From Thermodesulfobacteriota bacterium (lineage in GTDB: Bacteria; Desulfobacterota; Desulfobacteria; Desulfobacterales; Desulfosudaceae): a stretch of DNA of 64,000 bases. The notes beneath the pieces were generated by a model that saw only the letters and a list, made by a program, of their open reading frames with translations, ran no database searches and was not told the origin of the DNA. The position numbers were made by a program, and so were the translations under genes. The DNA lies in contig JBFMDX010000008.1 of assembly GCA_040753795.1 (NCBI GenBank), forward strand, positions 62,001 to 126,000. The letters run 5' to 3'. Of the stretch, positions 46,674-59,400 are shown in pieces (within the stretch, counting starts at the first letter, position 1; each line of letters begins with the position of its first letter).

Positions 46674-49454
46674 TCATACCTTAAACACCTTCATCACTTC
46701 ATCCCCCAGGTGGTTGATGACTTTGACGGCGATGCGGCCGGAGGCGGGTTTAGGGAAGGGGCGGGAGGTGTCGGAGTTGAGGGATTCCCAGGCCTCCTGG
46801 TTGATTTCGGCTTTGAGGGTGGTTTTGAGTGACTTGTAGGGATCATTGGCGCCGAGGAAATAGGCGTGGCGGACGAAGAAGCTTTCTTCGTTGTAATCGG
46901 TATCGATGAACCAGCAGGCGATTTCGTCAGTGTTGTTGCTGCGGATTTCGCCGGTGGAGGGATGGAACACATCCACGCCTTTGACCTGAACCTGAATCTG
47001 GTCGTCTTCGGCAGGCAAGATCTCGATGTCGGGTTCGCCGAAGATGACAAAGAGGTTGCCCTTGCCGGTGTTTTTCAGCTCATCGGCCATGTGCAGGTCG
47101 GCGTTCATGCGGGCCTTTAAAATGGGGATGCGGCCCAGCTTGTCGAACTCCGAGGAATGGGCATCGTAGTTGAAGGCGCAGGCAATCAGCGTGTCAAATC
47201 CGCCGTCGCCGGCTTCCCGGGCCGCGGCCACCAGGTCCGGCTTGGAGACGGTGCCGAATTCCGGGCCGATCAGAATGGCGGCCCGTTTTTCCGTGTCGCC
47301 TTCGGCGTAGCGGCCTTCGGCGCAGACATAGTGGCCCGGCCAGGGCGCAAGCGAGGTAAAGGTGATTTTGTCTTCCTTGTGGGCCTGCTGAACCCCGGCG
47401 ATTTTCAGGTTTTCCAGGATTACGGTGGTAAAGTCGTAGGTTTCTGAAAAGCCATCGCCGGGTTCGGACACGCCGTCGATCAGCTCATCGTTTTCATCCA
47501 CCCCGAGCACCCGGTGGGGCGAAAGGCTTTCCACGGTAAACGGGCCGGCCACCCGGACTTTTTTGCCGTCCTCGTAAGGTTTGTCATAGAGGTATTCATA
47601 ATCGGCTTTGGCGGCAATGGAGGCGTCGATCTCCTTTTGCCGGGCAATGCGGCTTTCCCACCAGTCGGCATGAAGTTTTTGCGCGGCTTTGGGCCAGTTG
47701 TCATCTGCTTCGCGGGGAATTTCCCACTCTTCCCATTTTTCTTTTACGGCCTTGTTCAGTTTTTCCCGCAGGGGTTCCAGCACCGCCTGATATTTTTCCC
47801 AGATGACGTCGATTTCGGTATTGTTGGCAATGGATTTTAGGGTGATGTGGGGCACGCGCTGGTAAACAAAGCCCTGGCGGATGTCGTTATAGGTGGGTGT
47901 GCGGGATGGTTCGATCTGGGTAATTTCCGCTTCTTTCCGCCGGCCTTCCGGGCTGTCGGCCAGCAAATAATAAGAATAGCGGGCGCCCATGAGCCGGGCA
48001 CGGGCCAGGGCCAAGGCCACCCGGGAGGTGTCGATGGTGATCCAGCGGCGGCCCCACTGCTCGGCCACGTAGGCGGTTGTTCCGGACCCGCAGGTTGGAT
48101 CAAGAACCAGATCGCCAGGGTCGGTGCTTAAAAGGATGCAACGTTGGATAACAGTGCTGGCTGTTTGTACCACATACGACTTATTTTGTTCTGAAAGCTG
48201 CTCGCTCCATAAATTTGTGATTGGTAATACATCAAAATCCTCAAGAAACCGTTTATATCTTAGTGTGTCACCAACCACCATCAAACGATCCGCTTTCTGT
48301 AGGTTGTACATGCCATCTGTCGAAGTTGACCAATATCTTTTTTTGGGGTTAAATTCTTTTCCACAATGATAAATGTTTTCGCTCTTGCTATAGTGAGAAG
48401 AAGTCAAATCAGAAGAGGCAAAAATCTTTCCGCCTGCTTTTATTTCTTTTCCTAAATCACTTATGCTCGCTATTGGTGCAGTTCTGCCATCTGCAGTCTG
48501 GATTTGCCCGTATCCAGTAGTGCCAAATTCACCAAATATTTTACGATTAAAAAGTTGTCGGTATTTTGTCATCCGAATGTTTTTACCAAACCATAAAATA
48601 TTGTCATTTACTATCGGCATCAGATTGGATCCTTGAGTGCTAGTAGTCTGATATACAATCTGACAACAAAAATTGTCTTCTCCAAACACCTCATCCATCA
48701 GCGCCCGGACCCGGTGCACATTCTCGTCCCCGATCTGGACAAAGATGGACCCGGAATCGGTGAGCAGGTCCCGGGCCACGGTGAGCCGGTCCCGCAGATA
48801 GGTGAGATAAGAATGAATGCCGTCGCGCCAGGTGTCCCGGAAGGCCTTGACCTGTTCGGGTTCCCGGGTGATGTGTTCGGCCTTGCCGTCCTTGACGTCG
48901 CGGCTGGTGGTGGACCACTGGAAATTGGAATTGAACTTGATGCCGTAGGGCGGGTCGATGTAGATGCACTGGACTTTGCCGCGCAGGCCTTCGCGCTCGG
49001 CCAGGGAGGCCATGACCTGGAGGGAGTCGCCTAAAATCATGCGGTTGGACCAGTTGGCGTCGTGCTTATAAAACTCGGTTTTGGCCTTTTCATCGGGCAG
49101 GCCGTTAAAATCGGCAAACAGATCCAGTTGCTGGGGTTTGCCGGCTTGTTCTTCTGCTTCGGTTTGGCGGCGCAGGTCGTCGATGAGGATTTTGGGATGG
49201 ACTTTTTCCTGAATATACAGGGGCGGGGCCTGAACGATCAGATCGGACCAGTCCTGCATATCCTTGCCGCGCCAGACCAGTTGGGGGTCCAGGTCGCGGT
49301 TGCGGCGCTGATAGGCCAGGAGAACCGGATTTTTCTCCTCGTCGCGCATGACCGACTGATATTCGGCGGTGGGGATGTTCTTGCGCGAGGCCCTGGCGTG
49401 GGTGATGGTGGTGACTTCTTTGACAGTTTCTTTTTTCGTGCTCTTTTTTGCCAT
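46674..49454 (-). CDS. Type III-like adenine-specific DNA methyltransferase (Mod)
   Basis: A 926-residue beta-class N6-adenine methyltransferase. Catalytic motif IV is YIDPPYGIKF (DPPY at residues 167-170), and AdoMet-binding motif I is LDPTCGSGTTAYVA (from residue 452). The order IV - target recognition - I is that of type III Mod and related beta-class enzymes. The N-terminal region (LDPQLVWRGKDMQDWSDL, then PPLYIQEKVHP) and a C-terminal ~350-residue extension match Mod proteins that pair with a DEAD/DEAH restriction subunit. Residues ~258-443 are encoded by markedly AT-richer DNA than the rest, as if swapped in. It lies 18 bases after the res stop and would methylate the recognition site and protect self DNA. 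Confidence 0.9.
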   Translation of the reverse strand: MAKKSTKKETVKEVTTITHARASRKNIPTAEYQSVMRDEEKNPVLLAYQRRNRDLDPQLVWRGKDMQDWSDLIVQAPPLYIQEKVHPKILIDDLRRQTEAEEQAGKPQQLDLFADFNGLPDEKAKTEFYKHDANWSNRMILGDSLQVMASLAEREGLRGKVQCIYIDPPYGIKFNSNFQWSTTSRDVKDGKAEHITREPEQVKAFRDTWRDGIHSYLTYLRDRLTVARDLLTDSGSIFVQIGDENVHRVRALMDEVFGEDNFCCQIVYQTTSTQGSNLMPIVNDNILWFGKNIRMTKYRQLFNRKIFGEFGTTGYGQIQTADGRTAPIASISDLGKEIKAGGKIFASSDLTSSHYSKSENIYHCGKEFNPKKRYWSTSTDGMYNLQKADRLMVVGDTLRYKRFLEDFDVLPITNLWSEQLSEQNKSYVVQTASTVIQRCILLSTDPGDLVLDPTCGSGTTAYVAEQWGRRWITIDTSRVALALARARLMGARYSYYLLADSPEGRRKEAEITQIEPSRTPTYNDIRQGFVYQRVPHITLKSIANNTEIDVIWEKYQAVLEPLREKLNKAVKEKWEEWEIPREADDNWPKAAQKLHADWWESRIARQKEIDASIAAKADYEYLYDKPYEDGKKVRVAGPFTVESLSPHRVLGVDENDELIDGVSEPGDGFSETYDFTTVILENLKIAGVQQAHKEDKITFTSLAPWPGHYVCAEGRYAEGDTEKRAAILIGPEFGTVSKPDLVAAAREAGDGGFDTLIACAFNYDAHSSEFDKLGRIPILKARMNADLHMADELKNTGKGNLFVIFGEPDIEILPAEDDQIQVQVKGVDVFHPSTGEIRSNNTDEIACWFIDTDYNEESFFVRHAYFLGANDPYKSLKTTLKAEINQEAWESLNSDTSRPFPKPASGRIAVKVINHLGDEVMKVFKV
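48124..48685 (-). other. AT-rich target-recognition segment within mod
   Basis: Inside a GC-rich gene, base composition drops abruptly at about 48,685 and recovers at about 48,124. The segment encodes residues ~258-443, exactly between the DPPY and DPTCGSGTT motifs, where beta-class enzymes hold their target recognition domain. This is the expected footprint of domain exchange by recombination. Confidence 0.65.
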
Positions 49455-49472
49455 GTGGCTATCCTCTGTTTT

Positions 49473-52400
49473 CTAAGGCTGAGGGGAAACAGAATGAACT
49501 ATTTGCTCGAACTGTTTTTCGATAACATCCTTCAGATCGCTCTCCATGCCATAAACCTCCGTTAACTCCGCAAAGGCCCAGCGGCCGTAGCGGCCGGAAT
49601 TGTTGACGCCGGGAATCCAGTAGGTTTCCATGGTCGCTTTCTTTTCCTTGGCATCTTCGCCGCGATAGCCCTTGATCTCCACGACCAGGTGCAGAGGATC
49701 GTCGCGGCCGTCGTCAATATCGACGATAAAATCCGGCAGGTAGGTGCGCACGCCGGAACCGTAGCGGTAAGGCACTTCCAGGCCCAGGTTGTGGTTCTTG
49801 ACATAGGCCCGGGCCCTGGGATGGGCCTCGGCCACCCGGCAGAACTCGGCCTCCCAGCCGCTGTCAAGTATGACCCAGTTGACATGGCAGCGGCGGGCGT
49901 CGGTCTGATAACGGTCTTGTTTGGAAGTATTAAAATTGACATGACGGGTGGAGCCGGTGGGATTGTAAGGATCGAGCACGGCCTGGACGGGACATTCTTC
50001 CACATGCGAGCGGGTAATGGCGCTGGTAATGCGTTCACAGGCCATGTCGGCCAGTTCCAAGTACATCAACTGGGCCGGATAGGTGTTGCCTTTGCAGACC
50101 AGGCAGGTGTCCAGCCACTGGCGGGTAATCTGCTTGAGCTGGCCGAAGAGGTGGAGCTTGGGGTCTTCGTCCGGGTCGTTCCAGCGGGTATAAAGCAACT
50201 GTTTGGTGAGATGATACAGCAGGGTGGCCGGGCGAACGGTTTCCAGATGCTTCAGGCTGAGATCCACATCCTGGCCGATAATGCCAGCATTTCTGGTGAT
50301 GGAGGGGCCGACCAGATCGGGCGACAGGGTCAGCACCGAATCGGCGGTGAACTTGGCGGACAGCCGGTCCCGGGGCAGTTCCACCCGGTAGCCGGTTACC
50401 CTGGGAAATCGGATTTCAAGGGCATCGCGGTCCGGCCGGACAGCCCGGACATGAATGGTTTTAGACGGCGGCTGGGGCGGGGCCACCACCGGTTTGGCGG
50501 TAAAGTCAAAAGGAATGCCGAGAATGTCGGCATACTCGGGGTTCAGCAGTCCGTCTGCTTCGTTGGTGGCATAGGATTGACGGCGCAGGGCGCGACCGAT
50601 GACCTGTTCGCAGAGAAGCTGGGTGCCGAAGGCGCGCACGCCGAGTACATGGGTGACGGTGTTGGCGTCCCAGCCTTCGGTGAGCATGGAAACCGAAACC
50701 ACGCAACGGATGGCCTCACCCAGGCGGCCCGGTTTGCCCACGGTGTTCATGACTTCCCGCAGCAGATCCTGGTCGGTGAGGTTTTCGGCCTGACGGCGGT
50801 CGCCGGTGCGTTCGATGATTTCCCGGCGGAAGCGCTCGATTTCGTCGCCGGCCATTTTCCGGAAGTTGTCGTCCAGAGCATCGCCGGACTCAAGCTGTTC
50901 GCTGTCGATGAGCAGGGTATGCGGCCGGGCCAGGGGCTGGTTGTTTTCGTCAAAATTGCGAAACAGGGCCAGGCGGCCGTTTTCCACCTGGCCGGGGCCG
51001 TTTTCCGTTTCGCGGACAAAGCCGGAAATATAGTCATAGACCAGCTTGGAAATGGCCGTGTTCTGGCAGACCACGATGAAACAGGGCGGCGAAGGCAGGT
51101 TTTCTTTTTCCCATAGATGAAAGGTTTCTTCATAATGGCCGTAAAGCGCTTCTAACGCGGTTTGCAGCTCTATGGGCAGGCTGAGGGGATCCAGTGAGCC
51201 GGATTTCCCCCTTCCTTTCTTGGGCATTTTTTTGCCGATGTGTGTCCAGAGGTCCCGGAAGCGGGGCATATCATCGCGCTTGATGAGGTTGTCGGCCACG
51301 GGCACGCGGGGCAGCTTGACGATGCCGCTTTCAATGGCGTCCATCAGGGAAAAGTCGCTCATGGTCCAGGGAAAGAGGGTGCCTTCGGCATAACCGGAGC
51401 CGCGCAGGAAAAACGGGGTGGCGGACAGGTCGATAACCCGGCGGACCCCCAGATGGCGGTTGACGGCTTCCAGGCCCGAAATCCAGAGCCGGGCCGCCTC
51501 GTTGTTTTTTTCCGCTTCTTTGCGGTCATCCCCTTTTAAGGCGAGCTCGTCTTCGTCCGGTGGTTTTTCGCGGTAGCAGTGATGGCCTTCGTCGTTGATG
51601 ACCAGAATGCTTTTCAAGCCCATGAGATCGGGCATGGCCCGTTGCAGCATCTGCCCTTCGGTTTCCAATGTGTCCAGGGGCGCGCCGTGGCCCTGGAGCA
51701 GGGCGCGGCCGCCTTTAGAAATTTCCAGGCGCTCGCGTCTTTTGAAGGTGTGAAAATTGGTGATGACGATCTTGGCCCGTTGCAATTCGCCGAGCATGTC
51801 GGGCGGAACCAGTTCCCGGCTCTGGTAGTAGCTGTCCGGATCGTTGGGAAAGAGGACGCGCAGTCGGTCGCGGATGGTCAGGCCGGGGGTGACGACCAGA
51901 AAGCCGCGGGTAAAGTTCGAGCTGGTGGGGCGACGCACGGCATTGATGGTCTGCCAGGCGATGAGCATGGCCATGACGGTGGTTTTGCCCGAGCCGGTAG
52001 CCATTTTCAGGGCCAGGCGGCTGATTTCCGGGTTGGCGTCATTGTTGGCATTGGCCAGATGCGTCAGAAAGCCCTGGCCCGATTTACCGGACTTCGGGGC
52101 CACTTCCGTCAGCCAGATGGCGGTTTCCATGGCTTCTACCTGGCAGAAAAAGGGACGGAAGCTGTTGAATTTATGATGACGCCAGTGTTGCAGCAGGCGG
52201 GCGGTTTCCGGCGTGACCCGCCAGTCGCTTGAATTCGGAATTTTCCGCCAGAGACCCACCTCCAGACGAAGCTGATTGATGATGGAGGTGGGGTCGTATT
52301 GCTGGGCCTCGGTGGACAGCCCCTTGCCTTCATCAAAGACAAACTCAAGTTGCTGCTCTTGGCTCTTTTTGCGTTTTCTCGGCTTGGGAATGGGGGTGAT

Positions 52401-52529
52401 GAATTGGGCCGGCCGGCGGTATTCCAGAATTTTCTGGGTCGGTTGACCCTGGCCGTCCAGTTCCCAGTGGCGGGCCGGATAGGTGTATGGTGAATTCAGG
52501 ACTGGTTGTTCGAAAAACCGATCATTCAT
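49473..52529 (-). CDS. Type III-like restriction endonuclease/helicase subunit (Res)
   Basis: A 1018-residue SF2 helicase-nuclease. Walker A is ALKMATGSGKTTVMAM (about residues 173-188), the DEAH-like motif II is LVINDEGHHC, SAT is IDLSATPFFL, and the second RecA domain has VVSVSMLTEGWDANTV and EQVIGRALRRQSY. The C-terminal PD-(D/E)XK nuclease reads YLPDFIVDIDDG with LVVEIKGYRGED. The N-terminal FFEQPVLNSPYTYPARHWEL and ITPIPKPRKRK are shared by a recognised family of Mod-associated restriction subunits (I recall the NCBI name BPTD_3080 family, unverified). The ATG at 52529 is preferred over an upstream in-frame codon at 52577. Here res precedes mod, the reverse of classical type III order. 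Confidence 0.88.
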   Translation of the reverse strand: MNDRFFEQPVLNSPYTYPARHWELDGQGQPTQKILEYRRPAQFITPIPKPRKRKKSQEQQLEFVFDEGKGLSTEAQQYDPTSIINQLRLEVGLWRKIPNSSDWRVTPETARLLQHWRHHKFNSFRPFFCQVEAMETAIWLTEVAPKSGKSGQGFLTHLANANNDANPEISRLALKMATGSGKTTVMAMLIAWQTINAVRRPTSSNFTRGFLVVTPGLTIRDRLRVLFPNDPDSYYQSRELVPPDMLGELQRAKIVITNFHTFKRRERLEISKGGRALLQGHGAPLDTLETEGQMLQRAMPDLMGLKSILVINDEGHHCYREKPPDEDELALKGDDRKEAEKNNEAARLWISGLEAVNRHLGVRRVIDLSATPFFLRGSGYAEGTLFPWTMSDFSLMDAIESGIVKLPRVPVADNLIKRDDMPRFRDLWTHIGKKMPKKGRGKSGSLDPLSLPIELQTALEALYGHYEETFHLWEKENLPSPPCFIVVCQNTAISKLVYDYISGFVRETENGPGQVENGRLALFRNFDENNQPLARPHTLLIDSEQLESGDALDDNFRKMAGDEIERFRREIIERTGDRRQAENLTDQDLLREVMNTVGKPGRLGEAIRCVVSVSMLTEGWDANTVTHVLGVRAFGTQLLCEQVIGRALRRQSYATNEADGLLNPEYADILGIPFDFTAKPVVAPPQPPSKTIHVRAVRPDRDALEIRFPRVTGYRVELPRDRLSAKFTADSVLTLSPDLVGPSITRNAGIIGQDVDLSLKHLETVRPATLLYHLTKQLLYTRWNDPDEDPKLHLFGQLKQITRQWLDTCLVCKGNTYPAQLMYLELADMACERITSAITRSHVEECPVQAVLDPYNPTGSTRHVNFNTSKQDRYQTDARRCHVNWVILDSGWEAEFCRVAEAHPRARAYVKNHNLGLEVPYRYGSGVRTYLPDFIVDIDDGRDDPLHLVVEIKGYRGEDAKEKKATMETYWIPGVNNSGRYGRWAFAELTEVYGMESDLKDVIEKQFEQIVHSVSPQP

Positions 52530-52791
52530 TGCCTGATGATTTCCCCCTTGTTGTTTTGTAAAACAATTTAACCGCAACGTGATCTTTTTTAAAGGAAATT
52601 CAATCCATTCCCTTAAAAACGGAAACGCTGTCTGCGGGAGATTGCTTATTCAATATGGTGAAAAATCGCCTGAAGCGCAAGCCCTTTCCGGCATGGCCGG
52701 CCGAAATCCGACTTGACGTTCCTTCCTATGGAATGATGGCGTTATTAGCGCTATTAATAATGAAGGGATTGGATTTGGCCGGGTGGCCCAA

Positions 52792-54929: not shown

Positions 54930-55526
54930 ATGAACGCGAAACTGATGATTAACAATTATGAAATCACCCTGGGCCACAAAGGGTTGGAAGAGATCGCATT
55001 CTGGCTGGAGGACGCGCCTGAGAACAGCGACATTTTTCATGAGTTGGCCAAATCGGAGTCCAGCGCGCTGCTGGTCAACCTGGTCGATAAAGAGCATTTG
55101 GCCAGGCTGACGGTGCGGATGCTGATCGAGGATTCATCGCTGGAAGTCATGCGGGCGGTCATTGACTCCAGGCACGCCAGAAAGCACATGACCCGCAGGG
55201 ATATGGAAGCATACCTTGCCACCGGCGACTGCGAGCTGTTGAGCACGATGGCCAGGGACCTGGAGTATTTTACGGAGGTTTACGAAGTCTGTGAAAAAGA
55301 CTGGTTGTGCGAAAAGCTGGCCGGCCAGAAGGACCCGGGCGTGCGGTTTGCCCTGGCCGAAAACACGGACACGCCGGTTCAGGTGCTGGAGGATCTGACC
55401 GAGGACGATGACCCGGATGTGGCCCGGCAGGCGGAAAAAACCCTGGCCGAAATACGGGAAGCAGAAGAGGATGAAGACGAAGAAGATGATGAGGATGAGG
55501 ACGAGGACGACGATATACCGCTGTAG
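54930..55526 (+). CDS. Alpha-helical repeat protein with acidic tail, unknown function
   Basis: A 198-residue soluble protein. The C-terminal half has HEAT/leucine-rich-variant-like repeats (WLCEKLAGQKDPGVRFALAE, then TPVQVLEDLTEDDDPDVARQ). The N-terminal half is also helical. The last ~25 residues are nearly all Asp/Glu before a short IPL end. Such tails often mimic DNA or bind basic proteins. A good Shine-Dalgarno (AAGGAGGAAGG) precedes the ATG. The WYL-type operator upstream suggests control by the regulator at the other end of the island. I do not recognise a named family. Confidence 0.65.
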   Translation: MNAKLMINNYEITLGHKGLEEIAFWLEDAPENSDIFHELAKSESSALLVNLVDKEHLARLTVRMLIEDSSLEVMRAVIDSRHARKHMTRRDMEAYLATGDCELLSTMARDLEYFTEVYEVCEKDWLCEKLAGQKDPGVRFALAENTDTPVQVLEDLTEDDDPDVARQAEKTLAEIREAEEDEDEEDDEDEDEDDDIPL

Positions 55527-55560: not shown

Positions 55561-55581
55561 TCCCCCGGTCAAGCCGGGGGA
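55561..55581. terminator. Stem-loop after the repeat-protein gene
   Basis: TCCCCCGG and CCGGGGGA form a perfect eight-base stem with loop TCAAG, 35 bases after the stop codon. There is no T-run, so it may be a REP-like element or the head of the following repeat array rather than a strong terminator. Confidence 0.5.
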
Positions 55582-55783
55582 TGACGAGGAAAAGTGGCCG
55601 GAGGATGACGAGAAAAGGGCCGGAGTGGGCACAGGGAATGACGAGGAAAAGGGTCGGGGTGCCCAGGAAAAGTGGCCGGAAGATGACAAAGTGAGAAGCC
55701 GGGGGATGACAAGAAGACAAACCAGGGGATGACGAGGAAAAACGTAGGTGAATGACAATGTAAGAATACGGAGGGGCTTAACG
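55579..55783. repeat. Degenerate ~23-bp tandem repeat array
   Basis: A GGATGACGAGGAAAA-type unit followed by GGCCGG-like bases recurs through about 200 bases. ATGAC cores are at 55581, 55605, 55638, 55683, 55706, 55729 and 55752; the last four are spaced exactly 23 bases, and a copy near 55666 is damaged. The array runs up to the ribosome site of the FtsZ-like gene. It has neither the uniform repeats nor the unique spacers of a CRISPR. Confidence 0.7.
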
Positions 55784-56905
55784 ATGAAGAAACCATCATT
55801 ATTTTCCCGACGCGAATTTATGCGGCGGATGGCATTGGGCGCGGGAATGATTTTACCCTTATCGACCGGTGCCATCGTTTCAGCAGAACCAGAGATTAAC
55901 GGCGGTTTAACGATAAGGCGTCTGCCGTGCAAAACCGAGAGTAGCCCTAACGGAGCAACGATAAAGGCCTTTGGCGTGGGCCGGGCCGGCCTGCATACTG
56001 TTTTAAGGCTTTTCGAAGAGTACGGCCGAATTGATGACACCATCGAGTATATTTTAGTAGAGTCGCACGGCAGCGAGCCCATAAGGTCAATACCCGCCTT
56101 CACGAAGGAACAATTTTGTGAACTCAGCGACATTATAAATCACAGCCAGCTTGTTTTTATCATAGCCGGATTAGAAGAGCATACAACGGCTGACGTCGTT
56201 CCGGTTATATCGGACATCGGTAAAAAAATGGGGAAGTTTACCTTATCGGTCGTATCAATGCCGTCCGATCCCGTAAGTACCGGGAAAAAGCTGCTCGCTG
56301 AACAACGGCTTGAAGCATGGCGCCGGGCCGGTGATTGTGTCATCACCGTATCAAACGACAACATTTCAAACACAGGTAGCGACGGCAATGTTGTTTCAGC
56401 ACAGAGTGTTGACATACTTATGGCTGCTGCTGTTTCAGGCATAAGCCAGGCTTTGTGTAGTCAAGGAGTACTTGGGGGACTGGATTTAGCCAACATTAAG
56501 CTGATGATGTCAGGGGCCAAAGAATTATCGTTTGGTATTGGTTGGGGCTGGGGAAAGAAGCGAGCTGAAACAGCTGTCTCCTCCGCCTGGCGCTATCTGT
56601 CCGCCCGAAAAAGATCCATGCTTTTCAAGGGCGTGCTTTTGGCTCTGATAGCCCCTTACGATCTTTCGTTTTATGAATTGGAGGCAGCAAGCGATACGCT
56701 TTACAAGGCACTGCCCAAAAATGTGCCAACTGAGCTTTTGACGCCAATATCCCTTTACGATCTTCCGTTTTATGAATTGGAGGCAGCAAGGGATCCGCTT
56801 TACGAGGCACTGCCCGACAATCTGTCAACTGAATTCCTGTGGACGTACGCTATAAATCCCCGGATTGGAATGGATGGTTTGCAGGCCGTTATCTATGGTT
56901 GTTGA
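55784..56905 (+). CDS. TAT-exported FtsZ-like protein with degenerate GTPase site
   Basis: A 373-residue protein. The N-terminus is a twin-arginine signal (SRREFMRRMALGAG, then hydrophobic residues to AIVSAEP). The rest follows the tubulin/FtsZ order: IKAFGVGRAGLHTVLRLF (nucleotide-fold first strand), LVFIIAGLEEHTTADVVPVI (where FtsZ has GGGTGTG), FTLSVVSMPSDP, VITVSNDNIS, VSGISQALCSQG, and GGLDLANIKLMMSG (T7 loop, with the catalytic Asp replaced by Asn and the leading Asn by Gly). The C-terminal subdomain (GVLLALIAPYDLSFYELEAA to AINPRIGMDGLQAVIYG) contains an extra tandem copy of its first half. GTP hydrolysis is unlikely. The start follows GGAGG by eight bases. Periplasmic location is inferred from the signal. 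Confidence 0.75.
   Translation: MKKPSLFSRREFMRRMALGAGMILPLSTGAIVSAEPEINGGLTIRRLPCKTESSPNGATIKAFGVGRAGLHTVLRLFEEYGRIDDTIEYILVESHGSEPIRSIPAFTKEQFCELSDIINHSQLVFIIAGLEEHTTADVVPVISDIGKKMGKFTLSVVSMPSDPVSTGKKLLAEQRLEAWRRAGDCVITVSNDNISNTGSDGNVVSAQSVDILMAAAVSGISQALCSQGVLGGLDLANIKLMMSGAKELSFGIGWGWGKKRAETAVSSAWRYLSARKRSMLFKGVLLALIAPYDLSFYELEAASDTLYKALPKNVPTELLTPISLYDLPFYELEAARDPLYEALPDNLSTEFLWTYAINPRIGMDGLQAVIYGC
56656..56839 (+). repeat. 99-bp-period tandem duplication inside the FtsZ-like gene
   Basis: Bases 56656-56740 and 56755-56839 are two closely similar copies offset by exactly 99 bases. They encode YDLSFYELEAASDTLYKALP and YDLPFYELEAARDPLYEALP. The duplication keeps the frame and inserts 33 residues in the C-terminal subdomain. 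The high DNA similarity suggests it is fairly recent. Confidence 0.85.
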
Positions 56906-57027: not shown

Positions 57028-59400
57028 GTGATTTCTGAACAACCGAATTTTGTTCATTTGAACGTTCATACCGAATACAGCCTGTTCGGCAGTATCATTC
57101 GCATCGAGGATCTGGTTGAGCGGGTGCGCGAAATGGGCATGAAGGCCGTGGCCATTACCGACGACGGGGTCATGTACGGGGTCATGGATTTTTATCGGAC
57201 CATGGTCAGGGCCGGGATCAAGCCGATTATCGGGTGCGACTGTTATCTGGCGCCGCGAACCATGGCGGACAATACCCTGGCCCGTTGCCGGGAGGTCACC
57301 CATCTGACGCTACTGGCGGAAAATATGGAGGGCTATGGCAACCTGTGTTGCATCGCGACGTTTGCCGCTGTTTCCGGATTCTATCAGCAGCCGCGTGTGG
57401 ACAGCGACGTGCTGCAGCAATACAGCCGGGGCCTGATCTGTCTTTCCGGCGGCATGCAAAGCGATATTGCCAGGCTGGTACAGGAGGGCACCTTTAGCGC
57501 AGCCTGGGCAGCGGCGCGATATTATAAGGAAGTCTTCGGGGAAGACAGCTTTTACCTGGAAATCCAGAACACCGGCCTGGCCGGCCAGGCGGAAGTCAAT
57601 CAGGCCCTGCGTGAAATGAGCCGTGATCTGTCGATTCCCATGGTCGGCACCAATTGCTGCCGCTATCTTAACCCCGGCGACAGCCGGTTTCTTGAAATTC
57701 TGCTCTGCCAAAAGGCCGATAAAACAATCGATGATCCGGACCGCCCGCGGGTGGCAAGCGATCAGCTTTATGTAAAATCAGCCGGAAAGATGATTTCTAT
57801 GCTGGCTGGTTTTCCGGGGGCCGCGGAAAATACCGTGGCCATTGCCGAACGGTGCAATGTCGAGTTTGATTTTACAACCTATCATCTGCCCCGGACCCGT
57901 CTGGAAGCGAAAGCCGGCCGCAGTGCCATTGGTGTTTTGAAAGAAAAAGCCGGGCAGGGATTAGAGGTCAGGCTGGCGCAAAGACGGCATCAGGAAGCCC
58001 ATATCGACGAAAACATCTACCGGGCGCGGCTGGATCATGAACTTGCCAAAATACAGCAGGCAGGCATAGCCGGATATTTCCTGCTGGTAGCGGAGATTGT
58101 CGATTTTGCCATGGACAACAACATTCCTATTGGTCCGGGCCGGGGGGCCACGCCCGGGTGTCTGGCCTGTTACTGCCTGGGCATAACCGCCATTGATCCT
58201 GTCGCGCACGGTCTTCTGTTTGAGCGGTTCTTCAACTCTCTGCGTCCGGTCATGCCGGATATTGACCTGGATGTCTGCATTAGGGGGCGGGAGAAGGTTG
58301 TCCAACACCTTCTGGATACATACAATGCCGGCGATTTTCTCCAACATCGTGCCTCGCACATCATCACATTTGGCGCCATGAAAACCAGGCACTGTGTGCG
58401 AGAAGTGGCCCGGGTTCTGTCTGTTTCAAAGAAAAAAGCAGAAACAATTATCCGGTTGATACCGCCCCAGGCCAGAGATCTGGCCGATGCCCTGGCCCAA
58501 GTCCCGACCTTAGAAAAGCAGATGGACGGCTGTTCGGATCACGGTGAAACACTCAAGCAGGCGGTTCGAAAGCTGGAGGGGCTTCCCCGTCATCCCGCCA
58601 TTCATCAGGCTGGTATCGTTGTCGGAGATCAACCGTTGACCAGGACTATACCCCTTTCCATTATCAGGGGAAAAGTTGCCACCCAGTTTACTGCCTGGCA
58701 GGTGGAGTCCATGGGGCTGATCATACTGGACCTGCTGGGGCTGCGCCACCTGACAATCATAAACGATACCCTGGCATTGATAAAAGAACAGGGGAAAACC
58801 CCGCCGGATATGTGCCAACTCGATATGGCCGATGAACAGACGTTCCAGCTTCTTGGCCGGGGTGACACCGACGGTGTTTTTCAACTGGCAGCCGCAGGGA
58901 TAAGGGAACTTTTGATAAAAATGAAACCGGATGCTTTTTCGGATATTGTCACGCTGATCGGTTTATACCGGCCGGGGCCCCTGGAAGACGGGGTGATTGA
59001 TGATTTTATCGATCGGAAGCATGGCCGCAAAGAAGTTGCCTATCCTGTTCCGGGGCTGGAGCCATTCCTGAAAGAGACCTATGGCCTTCCTTTATATCAG
59101 GAACAGATCATGCGGATCGTCCAGGATCTGGCTGGCTTTTCTCCGGAGCAGTCGGACAGTTTTCGCAGAGCCGTGGGGAAAAAAATAGTAAAGGAGATGG
59201 AGGCTTTTCGACGGTTCTTTATCAATGGCCTGACGACTGGGGGTACAGCCGAAGACACTGCGCGAGAACTGTATGAACAGCTCGAATTTTTTGCCGGTTA
59301 CGGTTTCCATAAGTCCCACAGCACCGCTTACGCTCTGATCGCGTACCAGTCAGCGTATTTAAAAGCGCATTTCAGGGATGAGTTCATGGCGCAACTATAA
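57028..59400 (+). CDS. Shortened DNA polymerase III alpha-subunit paralogue (DnaE-like)
   Basis: A 790-residue protein. The N-terminal PHP domain (FVHLNVHTEYSLFGS, then AITDDGVMYGVMDFY) and the palm with the catalytic aspartates are present: PDIDLDVCIRG (Asp411, Asp413), and the third Asp in LDLLGLRHLTIIND. Fingers motifs such as GVFQLAAAGI and YRPGPLEDGVIDDFI are intact. The protein stops at YQSAYLKAHFRDEFMAQL, where full DnaE continues for roughly 350 more residues. The end of the fingers, the helix-hairpin-helix, beta-clamp-binding, OB and tau-binding regions are missing. The GTG start at 57028 follows GGGGAG by six bases; a longer frame from 56956 lacks such a site. It is likely a secondary or decayed copy; the true dnaE should be elsewhere. 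Confidence 0.82.
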   Translation: MISEQPNFVHLNVHTEYSLFGSIIRIEDLVERVREMGMKAVAITDDGVMYGVMDFYRTMVRAGIKPIIGCDCYLAPRTMADNTLARCREVTHLTLLAENMEGYGNLCCIATFAAVSGFYQQPRVDSDVLQQYSRGLICLSGGMQSDIARLVQEGTFSAAWAAARYYKEVFGEDSFYLEIQNTGLAGQAEVNQALREMSRDLSIPMVGTNCCRYLNPGDSRFLEILLCQKADKTIDDPDRPRVASDQLYVKSAGKMISMLAGFPGAAENTVAIAERCNVEFDFTTYHLPRTRLEAKAGRSAIGVLKEKAGQGLEVRLAQRRHQEAHIDENIYRARLDHELAKIQQAGIAGYFLLVAEIVDFAMDNNIPIGPGRGATPGCLACYCLGITAIDPVAHGLLFERFFNSLRPVMPDIDLDVCIRGREKVVQHLLDTYNAGDFLQHRASHIITFGAMKTRHCVREVARVLSVSKKKAETIIRLIPPQARDLADALAQVPTLEKQMDGCSDHGETLKQAVRKLEGLPRHPAIHQAGIVVGDQPLTRTIPLSIIRGKVATQFTAWQVESMGLIILDLLGLRHLTIINDTLALIKEQGKTPPDMCQLDMADEQTFQLLGRGDTDGVFQLAAAGIRELLIKMKPDAFSDIVTLIGLYRPGPLEDGVIDDFIDRKHGRKEVAYPVPGLEPFLKETYGLPLYQEQIMRIVQDLAGFSPEQSDSFRRAVGKKIVKEMEAFRRFFINGLTTGGTAEDTARELYEQLEFFAGYGFHKSHSTAYALIAYQSAYLKAHFRDEFMAQL

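Follow-up and report, generated by a model that had tools for sequence, protein, structure and literature searches.

The window, the 64,000-nucleotide stretch of DNA analysed here, carries on its plus strand a gene for an FtsZ-like protein with a Tat-type N-terminus, lying between a HEAT-like gene and an extra DnaE paralogue. The genes and features referred to below are as follows:

46674..52577, minus strand: type III restriction-modification genes, given as context, with mod at 46674-49454 (PADLOC MTase_III) and a helicase-like res at 49473-52577
54930..55526, plus strand: HEAT-like partner gene, whose 198-aa product has an acidic tail; the HEAT-like and FtsZ-like genes are linked in six of eight genomes
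55573..55737, plus strand: intergenic repeats around CGGGGGATGACGAGG in the gap between the HEAT-like and FtsZ-like genes (repeat search)
55784..56905, plus strand: FtsZ-like protein with a Tat-type N-terminus, 373 aa (translation; matches to TIGR00065, to FtsZ in the PDB and of the model)
55784..55888, plus strand: Tat-type signal, residues 1-35, made up of an n-region, SRREFM at 8-13, a moderate hydrophobic stretch and VSA at the end (TIGR01409 below threshold; motif kept in relatives)
55961..56023, plus strand: first Rossmann strand, T1 loop and first helix, with GVGRAGL for GVGGAGGN (alignment to FtsZ)
56168..56194, plus strand: site of the tubulin signature GGGTGTG, here GLEEHTTAD, residues 129-137 (alignment to FtsZ)
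56474..56500, plus strand: T7 loop GGLDLANIK, with the Asn lost, the first catalytic Asp kept and the second Asp changed to Asn (alignment)
56635..56832, plus strand: 33-aa in-frame tandem duplication in the C-terminal domain, two head-to-tail 99-nt copies that are 86% identical (sequence comparison)
57028..59400, plus strand: extra DnaE (DNA polymerase III alpha) paralogue, 790 aa, with PHP, polymerase and finger domains and no HhH or later domains (domain search)

An FtsZ relative with an altered nucleotide pocket

The FtsZ-like gene has the limits given in the initial annotation: it begins with an ATG at 55784 and its stop codon ends at 56905, a frame of 373 codons preceded by a strong ribosome-binding site (Shine-Dalgarno sequence GGAGG just 5' of the ATG). 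TIGR00065, the NCBI model for FtsZ, matches the protein at 2.6e-21 over residues 113-311, and a PDB search returned FtsZ chains at 9e-18, all of the matches listed being FtsZ except for one chance match. Pfam Tubulin reaches 2.7e-7, slightly below the Pfam cut-off. This homology is far above chance and, at the level of sequence, establishes descent from FtsZ, as had been proposed from the sequence at the outset. The score of 76.4 bits on TIGR00065 is well below the FtsZ equivalog cut-off of 295 bits, so that the window protein is an FtsZ relative and not FtsZ proper. The same genome encodes a normal FtsZ of 394 aa elsewhere, after murG, murC, murB, ftsQ and ftsA (names read from the sequences), with which the window protein shares 32% identity across 200 residues.

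Modelling gave a compatible picture. AlphaFold on the single sequence without an alignment was uninformative (pLDDT 36), whereas a run supplied with an alignment of four FtsZ sequences from viral contigs reached pLDDT 66 and pTM 0.68, the core lying mostly at 70-87. This model, whose alignment contained FtsZs, superimposes on solved FtsZ with a Z score of 30.7 and 2.3 Å over 269 residues, and the Foldseek and VIA matches listed for it are all FtsZ. The comparison with FtsZ that the initial annotation had suggested thus returned an FtsZ fold, in a test that is not independent because the alignment rows are themselves FtsZ. The model shows that the window sequence is compatible with an FtsZ fold, and the claim of an FtsZ relative is carried by the sequence evidence.

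The protein has the whole domain order of FtsZ (TIGR00065; PF00091 and PF12327), including GVGxxGL in the first strand and T1 loop, T7/H8 and the C-terminal domain. Unlike FtsZ, it lacks GGGTGTG and the T7 Asn, carries a Tat-type N-terminus and is encoded outside the division cluster. The replacement of GGGTGTG by GLEEHTTAD, as first annotated, is exact in the alignment to FtsZ. The accompanying claim that T7 had lost its catalytic Asp needs amending: FtsZ NLDFADVK has become GLDLANIK, which departs from NxDxxD in that the Asn is lost and the second Asp is changed to Asn, but the first Asp is kept. The description "dead GTPase motifs" therefore suits the nucleotide pocket and applies to T7 only in part.

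The same pattern extends to the relatives introduced below. GGGTGTG is absent from all eight FtsZ-like members in the alignment (one G037 copy, C26, ends with its contig before a complete T4), and in all eight Gly or Cys stands in place of the T7 Asn. Every one of them retains the first T7 Asp and seven retain the second, T7 reading [G/C]xDxxD in the other seven as against GLDLAN in the window protein. Five members (G274, G716, both G037 copies and G739) have (R/K)DF(W/F)IAR in common at the position of the FtsZ signature, and a G-x-S/T-F/Y-type stretch follows the hydrophobic segment in the G274 group. From these changes we infer that the FtsZ-like family does not bind GTP. The 99-nt duplication in the C-terminal domain of the window protein is an additional feature that the initial annotation had passed over.

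The Tat-type N-terminus and the family that shares it

The SRREFM motif first annotated as a twin-arginine signal lies at residues 8-13 and is followed by a hydrophobic stretch with a 13-residue mean of 1.72 on the Kyte-Doolittle scale (1.5-1.9 across members). TIGR01409, the NCBI Tat model, is the only match of residues 1-60, at 13.5 bits and below its cut-off of 16.7. It also ranks first for six of eight N-termini, only that of G037 lying above the cut-off (17.5 bits), and the search with Tat models gave no match for G002 and G069. The motif [S/T/N]RRxF is present in seven of the eight complete N-termini and the eighth, that of G002, reads RC (SRCDF where the window protein has SRREF). Most members have no obvious cleavage site. 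The initial annotation had raised a mis-start, to be recognized by absence of the signal from all homologues; the recurrence of the same N-terminus in relatives indicates that the window start is no mis-start.

Among 312 ORFs of at least 150 aa in the family loci and the window, an RRxF-type motif occurs in nine: eight belong to the family (the window gene being counted twice) and one to a neighbour of the G739 copy. A second small protein in G739 (L109:4461-5027), starting with ITRRKFL, is encoded between the HEAT-like and FtsZ-like genes. TatC is encoded in all eight genomes. Like Tat-exported proteins (TIGR01409 / PF10518), members of the family have RRxF near the start and a moderate hydrophobic stretch; they differ from them in the FtsZ-like body and in scores that mostly fall under the curated cut-off. 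Export through Tat would be the natural reading of this N-terminus.

Defined by a shared N-terminus or body, the family comprises nine proteins from eight genera and four families of one order: the window protein, one each from G002, G274, G716, G732, G739 and G069, and two from G037. Eight of the members are FtsZ-like, and eight have a complete N-terminus. The first relative, from G002, belongs to another genus of the same family and is 28% identical to the window protein over 318 aligned columns from residue 1. The G274 gene, whose product starts with MSNVSRRKFIK, was found through its linked HEAT-like gene across 291 genomes of the order, and searches with its product and relatives added the members from G716, G037 (two), G732, G739 and G069. 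A tree of the region from T7 to the C-terminus places the Tat members apart from FtsZ with support 87/84; its branches are long, leaving the order inside the Tat group unsure.

Draws of 395 and 375 genomes from the phylum yielded no convincing member outside the order, the second at a limit of 1e-30 that divergent members can escape. Scans of genome contigs for degenerate patterns, with the window protein and a two-member profile, gave no members; their sole match, L015, was rejected as antisense over a high-GC transporter gene. Viral contigs scanned with the FtsZ-like and HEAT-like profiles gave none, and no such protein turned up in plasmid and phage records, where one search returned ordinary FtsZ only. 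An extra FtsZ in G043 proved to be a fragment of ordinary FtsZ that retains GGGTGTG and is not a member.

G002 has three FtsZ-like genes in one locus (L075:13728-14276, L012:884-1492 and L012:9413-10381). Two of the products consist of the GTPase domain only and flank the HEAT-like gene, one of them with GGGTGTG intact and a gene that overlaps the HEAT stop codon; the third has the signal, T7 and the C-terminal domain. The two kinds complement each other as halves of FtsZ.

Comparison with known proteins sets the family apart. FtsZ and tubulins have been known as polymerising GTPases of the cytoplasm. PF13809 (Tubulin_2), which we take to be the likely Pfam counterpart of FtsZl1, gave no match to the window protein at E values up to 10. 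FtsZl1 and FtsZl2 resemble the window family as divergent extra FtsZ relatives that occur beside a normal FtsZ and have a suspected role at the envelope. Their best alignment lies in the nucleotide-binding half, and their extra parts are a coiled coil or about 300 aa of C-terminal sequence (Makarova and Koonin, 2010; PMC2875224), whereas in the window family the C-terminal half is the one kept. FtsZl2 has a mixed alpha/beta C-terminal region of about 300 aa after the GTPase domain (PMC2875224), and the window protein stops after the FtsZ C-terminal domain. The cytoplasmic location that the initial annotation ascribed to the FtsZl families is borne out as far as FtsZl1, called "likely cytoplasmic" by a reviewer whose report is printed with that paper (PMC2875224). 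A search of the full-text open-access literature for FtsZ with a Tat or other signal peptide found no exported FtsZ relative described, in line with the novelty claimed from the start. We read the family as a new, Tat-signal and non-GTPase branch of the FtsZ family, whose members are probably exported through Tat.

A recurrent gene cassette

The FtsZ-like genes recur with the same neighbours, and some of these neighbours are defence genes. In the window, G716 and G732 the gene immediately upstream is a HEAT-like one (in G732 a second copy of the HEAT-like family). A HEAT-like gene is also present at a distance of one gene in G274 and G739 and of about 8.5 kb in G002; none was seen near the G037 and G069 copies. 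A WYL regulator adjoins the set in five of the eight genomes (G274, G716, G732, G739 and G069). Paralogues of DnaB or DnaE are linked in four of the eight: a protein with the C-terminal domain of DnaB beside the G274 and G716 copies, and a DnaE paralogue flanking those of the window and G002. The genome of the window has three dnaE genes, two of which encode proteins of about 790 aa that end after the finger domain. The gap between the HEAT-like and FtsZ-like genes holds five imperfect copies of CGGGGGATGACGAGG at 55573-55737, with none elsewhere in the window and 0.28 expected by chance.

Beside the G716 copy, PADLOC identified GajA and GajB (Gabija) as well as subunits of type I restriction. 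It also recognised one methyltransferase of type I close to the G002 cluster and one of type III in the window; res (49473-52577) had no PADLOC match and is named from its sequence. No PADLOC family matched the FtsZ-like or HEAT-like proteins, and the WYL regulator and ATPases gave only general matches.

The member from G732 has a different body. Its Tat N-terminus and FtsZ-like first strand are joined to an Endonuclease_NS segment (L095:9592-10338), the C-terminal half of a DNA/RNA non-specific endonuclease, which stands in place of the FtsZ body. Nucleases of the Endonuclease_NS family are often secreted. The HEAT-like protein nearest to this Tat gene (L095:10389-11426) ends in an MraZ domain, and MraZ in this HEAT fusion is another division-cluster protein. 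HEAT-like and WYL proteins with cut-down DnaB, DnaE or MraZ copies beside defence systems would make a candidate for a system as yet undescribed.

Several other observations concern the same loci. The DnaE paralogues of the window (57028-59400) and of L051 (9101-11485) both stop right after the finger domain, and that of L051 has ADIGLD where others have PDIDxD, a position that we take to be in the DnaE active site; it may be catalytically dead. The DnaE paralogue encoded at L012:5667-9320 has a restriction-alleviation domain (Lar) close to its C-terminal end, and a free Lar-like protein (2090-2512) is encoded in the same locus. L051:5451-13760 and L012:3104-9320, from two genomes, have in common a nuclease-like protein of 336 aa, a protein of the MBL fold and a DnaE paralogue; L051 further encodes an AAA protein of 748 aa that partly resembles IetA. 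At L076:12112-17042, L092:14610-18461 and L079:8929-10468, a HEAT-like gene of a second type is linked to a peptidase-like protein and to another protein about 110 aa long, the L092 set having a GHKL-ATPase protein as well; these three loci look like another recurring cassette.

Possible roles of the FtsZ-like protein

Our preferred explanation, a tentative one that we hold at somewhat below an even chance, is that the family is a Tat-exported, folded, non-GTPase branch of FtsZ serving as an envelope component of an accessory and perhaps defensive cassette. A division ftsZ would have been duplicated, would have lost nucleotide binding and would then have gained a Tat signal, founding the small family. 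The product would be exported in its folded state, and the Tat route, which carries folded proteins, suits an FtsZ body. Once exported, whether to the periplasm or to the outer side of the inner membrane, it would act as a non-GTPase binder or scaffold, its working surface presumably being the kept T7/H8 and C-terminal surface. The accessory cassette would consist of the HEAT-like protein, often joined by a WYL regulator and by a replication paralogue that has been truncated, and would sit in regions that are mobile or rich in defence genes; it might answer phage or foreign DNA, with the FtsZ-like protein often under WYL control. Descent from FtsZ, the missing GGGTGTG, the Tat-type N-terminus kept in relatives, the recurring cassette and some defence neighbours are observed, whereas export, folded state, lack of GTP binding, interaction surface and defence role are all predictions. 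If they are right, the FtsZ fold would have been reused outside the cytoplasm as a plain structural or binding module, the combination suggesting that an old cytoskeletal fold has been put to new use, and such a branch would directly test what the FtsZ C-terminal face can do without GTP.

A more specific version, which we regard as possible but doubtful, would make the nucleotide-free exported FtsZ body an exchangeable envelope effector of the WYL/HEAT cassette against phage or foreign DNA; the Endonuclease_NS swap in G732 supports such a slot for exported effectors. Several points weigh against export: the periplasm contains neither GTP nor FtsZ, so that the kept T7 Asp would have no obvious job there, and the Tat scores below cut-off, the RC of G002, the lack of a Tat match for G002 and G069 and the unclear cleavage sites point the same way. 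The preferred explanation as a whole is also weakened by the G037 and G069 copies, which have no HEAT-like gene nearby, by the lack of a PADLOC match for the FtsZ-like and HEAT-like proteins and by fold matches that rest on a model built with FtsZ rows.

These weaknesses at the N-terminus would be expected if the protein were instead a cytoplasmic or membrane-attached paralogue, its N-terminus a vestige or an anchor, acting as a decoy or regulator of division or replication inside the cell. The linked genes, which encode cytoplasmic proteins (DnaB, DnaE, HEAT and WYL), also fit this explanation. We nevertheless consider it unlikely. RRxF persists among members whose sequences otherwise have little in common, and few other ORFs in these loci contain it; a typical membrane anchor would be more hydrophobic than this stretch, and in G732 the same N-terminus precedes a nuclease segment.

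Alternatively, export could serve as an antitoxin. The protein would be a dominant-negative partner of FtsZ whose T7 and C-terminal face docks on the GTP face of host FtsZ and caps its filaments; Tat would keep it out of the cytoplasm until infection collapsed the proton-motive force, export stopped and division was blocked. Conservation of T7, H8 and the C-terminal domain, which contact the nucleotide of the next subunit, beside an eroded pocket of its own fits this proposal, and the neighbours include other cut-down essential proteins (DnaB reduced to its C-terminal domain, DnaE without its C-terminal domains, the HEAT-MraZ fusion), several copies lying in defence-rich regions. SulA and MciZ are inhibitors that bind FtsZ, and the protein would likewise block contacts between FtsZ subunits; they are unrelated proteins that act in the cytoplasm, whereas the candidate here is itself derived from FtsZ. 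To our knowledge, such a mechanism has no precedent, most members have lost much of the N-terminal domain, which makes docking uncertain, and in one genome (G732) a nuclease segment has taken the place of the body; we consider the proposal improbable.

It is very improbable that the gene is a decaying, functionless ftsZ duplicate with a signal-like start arisen by chance, as the lost pocket residues, the internal 99-nt duplication, the very long branches and the shortened adjoining DnaE might suggest, because the frame is open, the ribosome-binding site is good and relatives in eight genera share the N-terminus, the T7 pattern and the neighbours.
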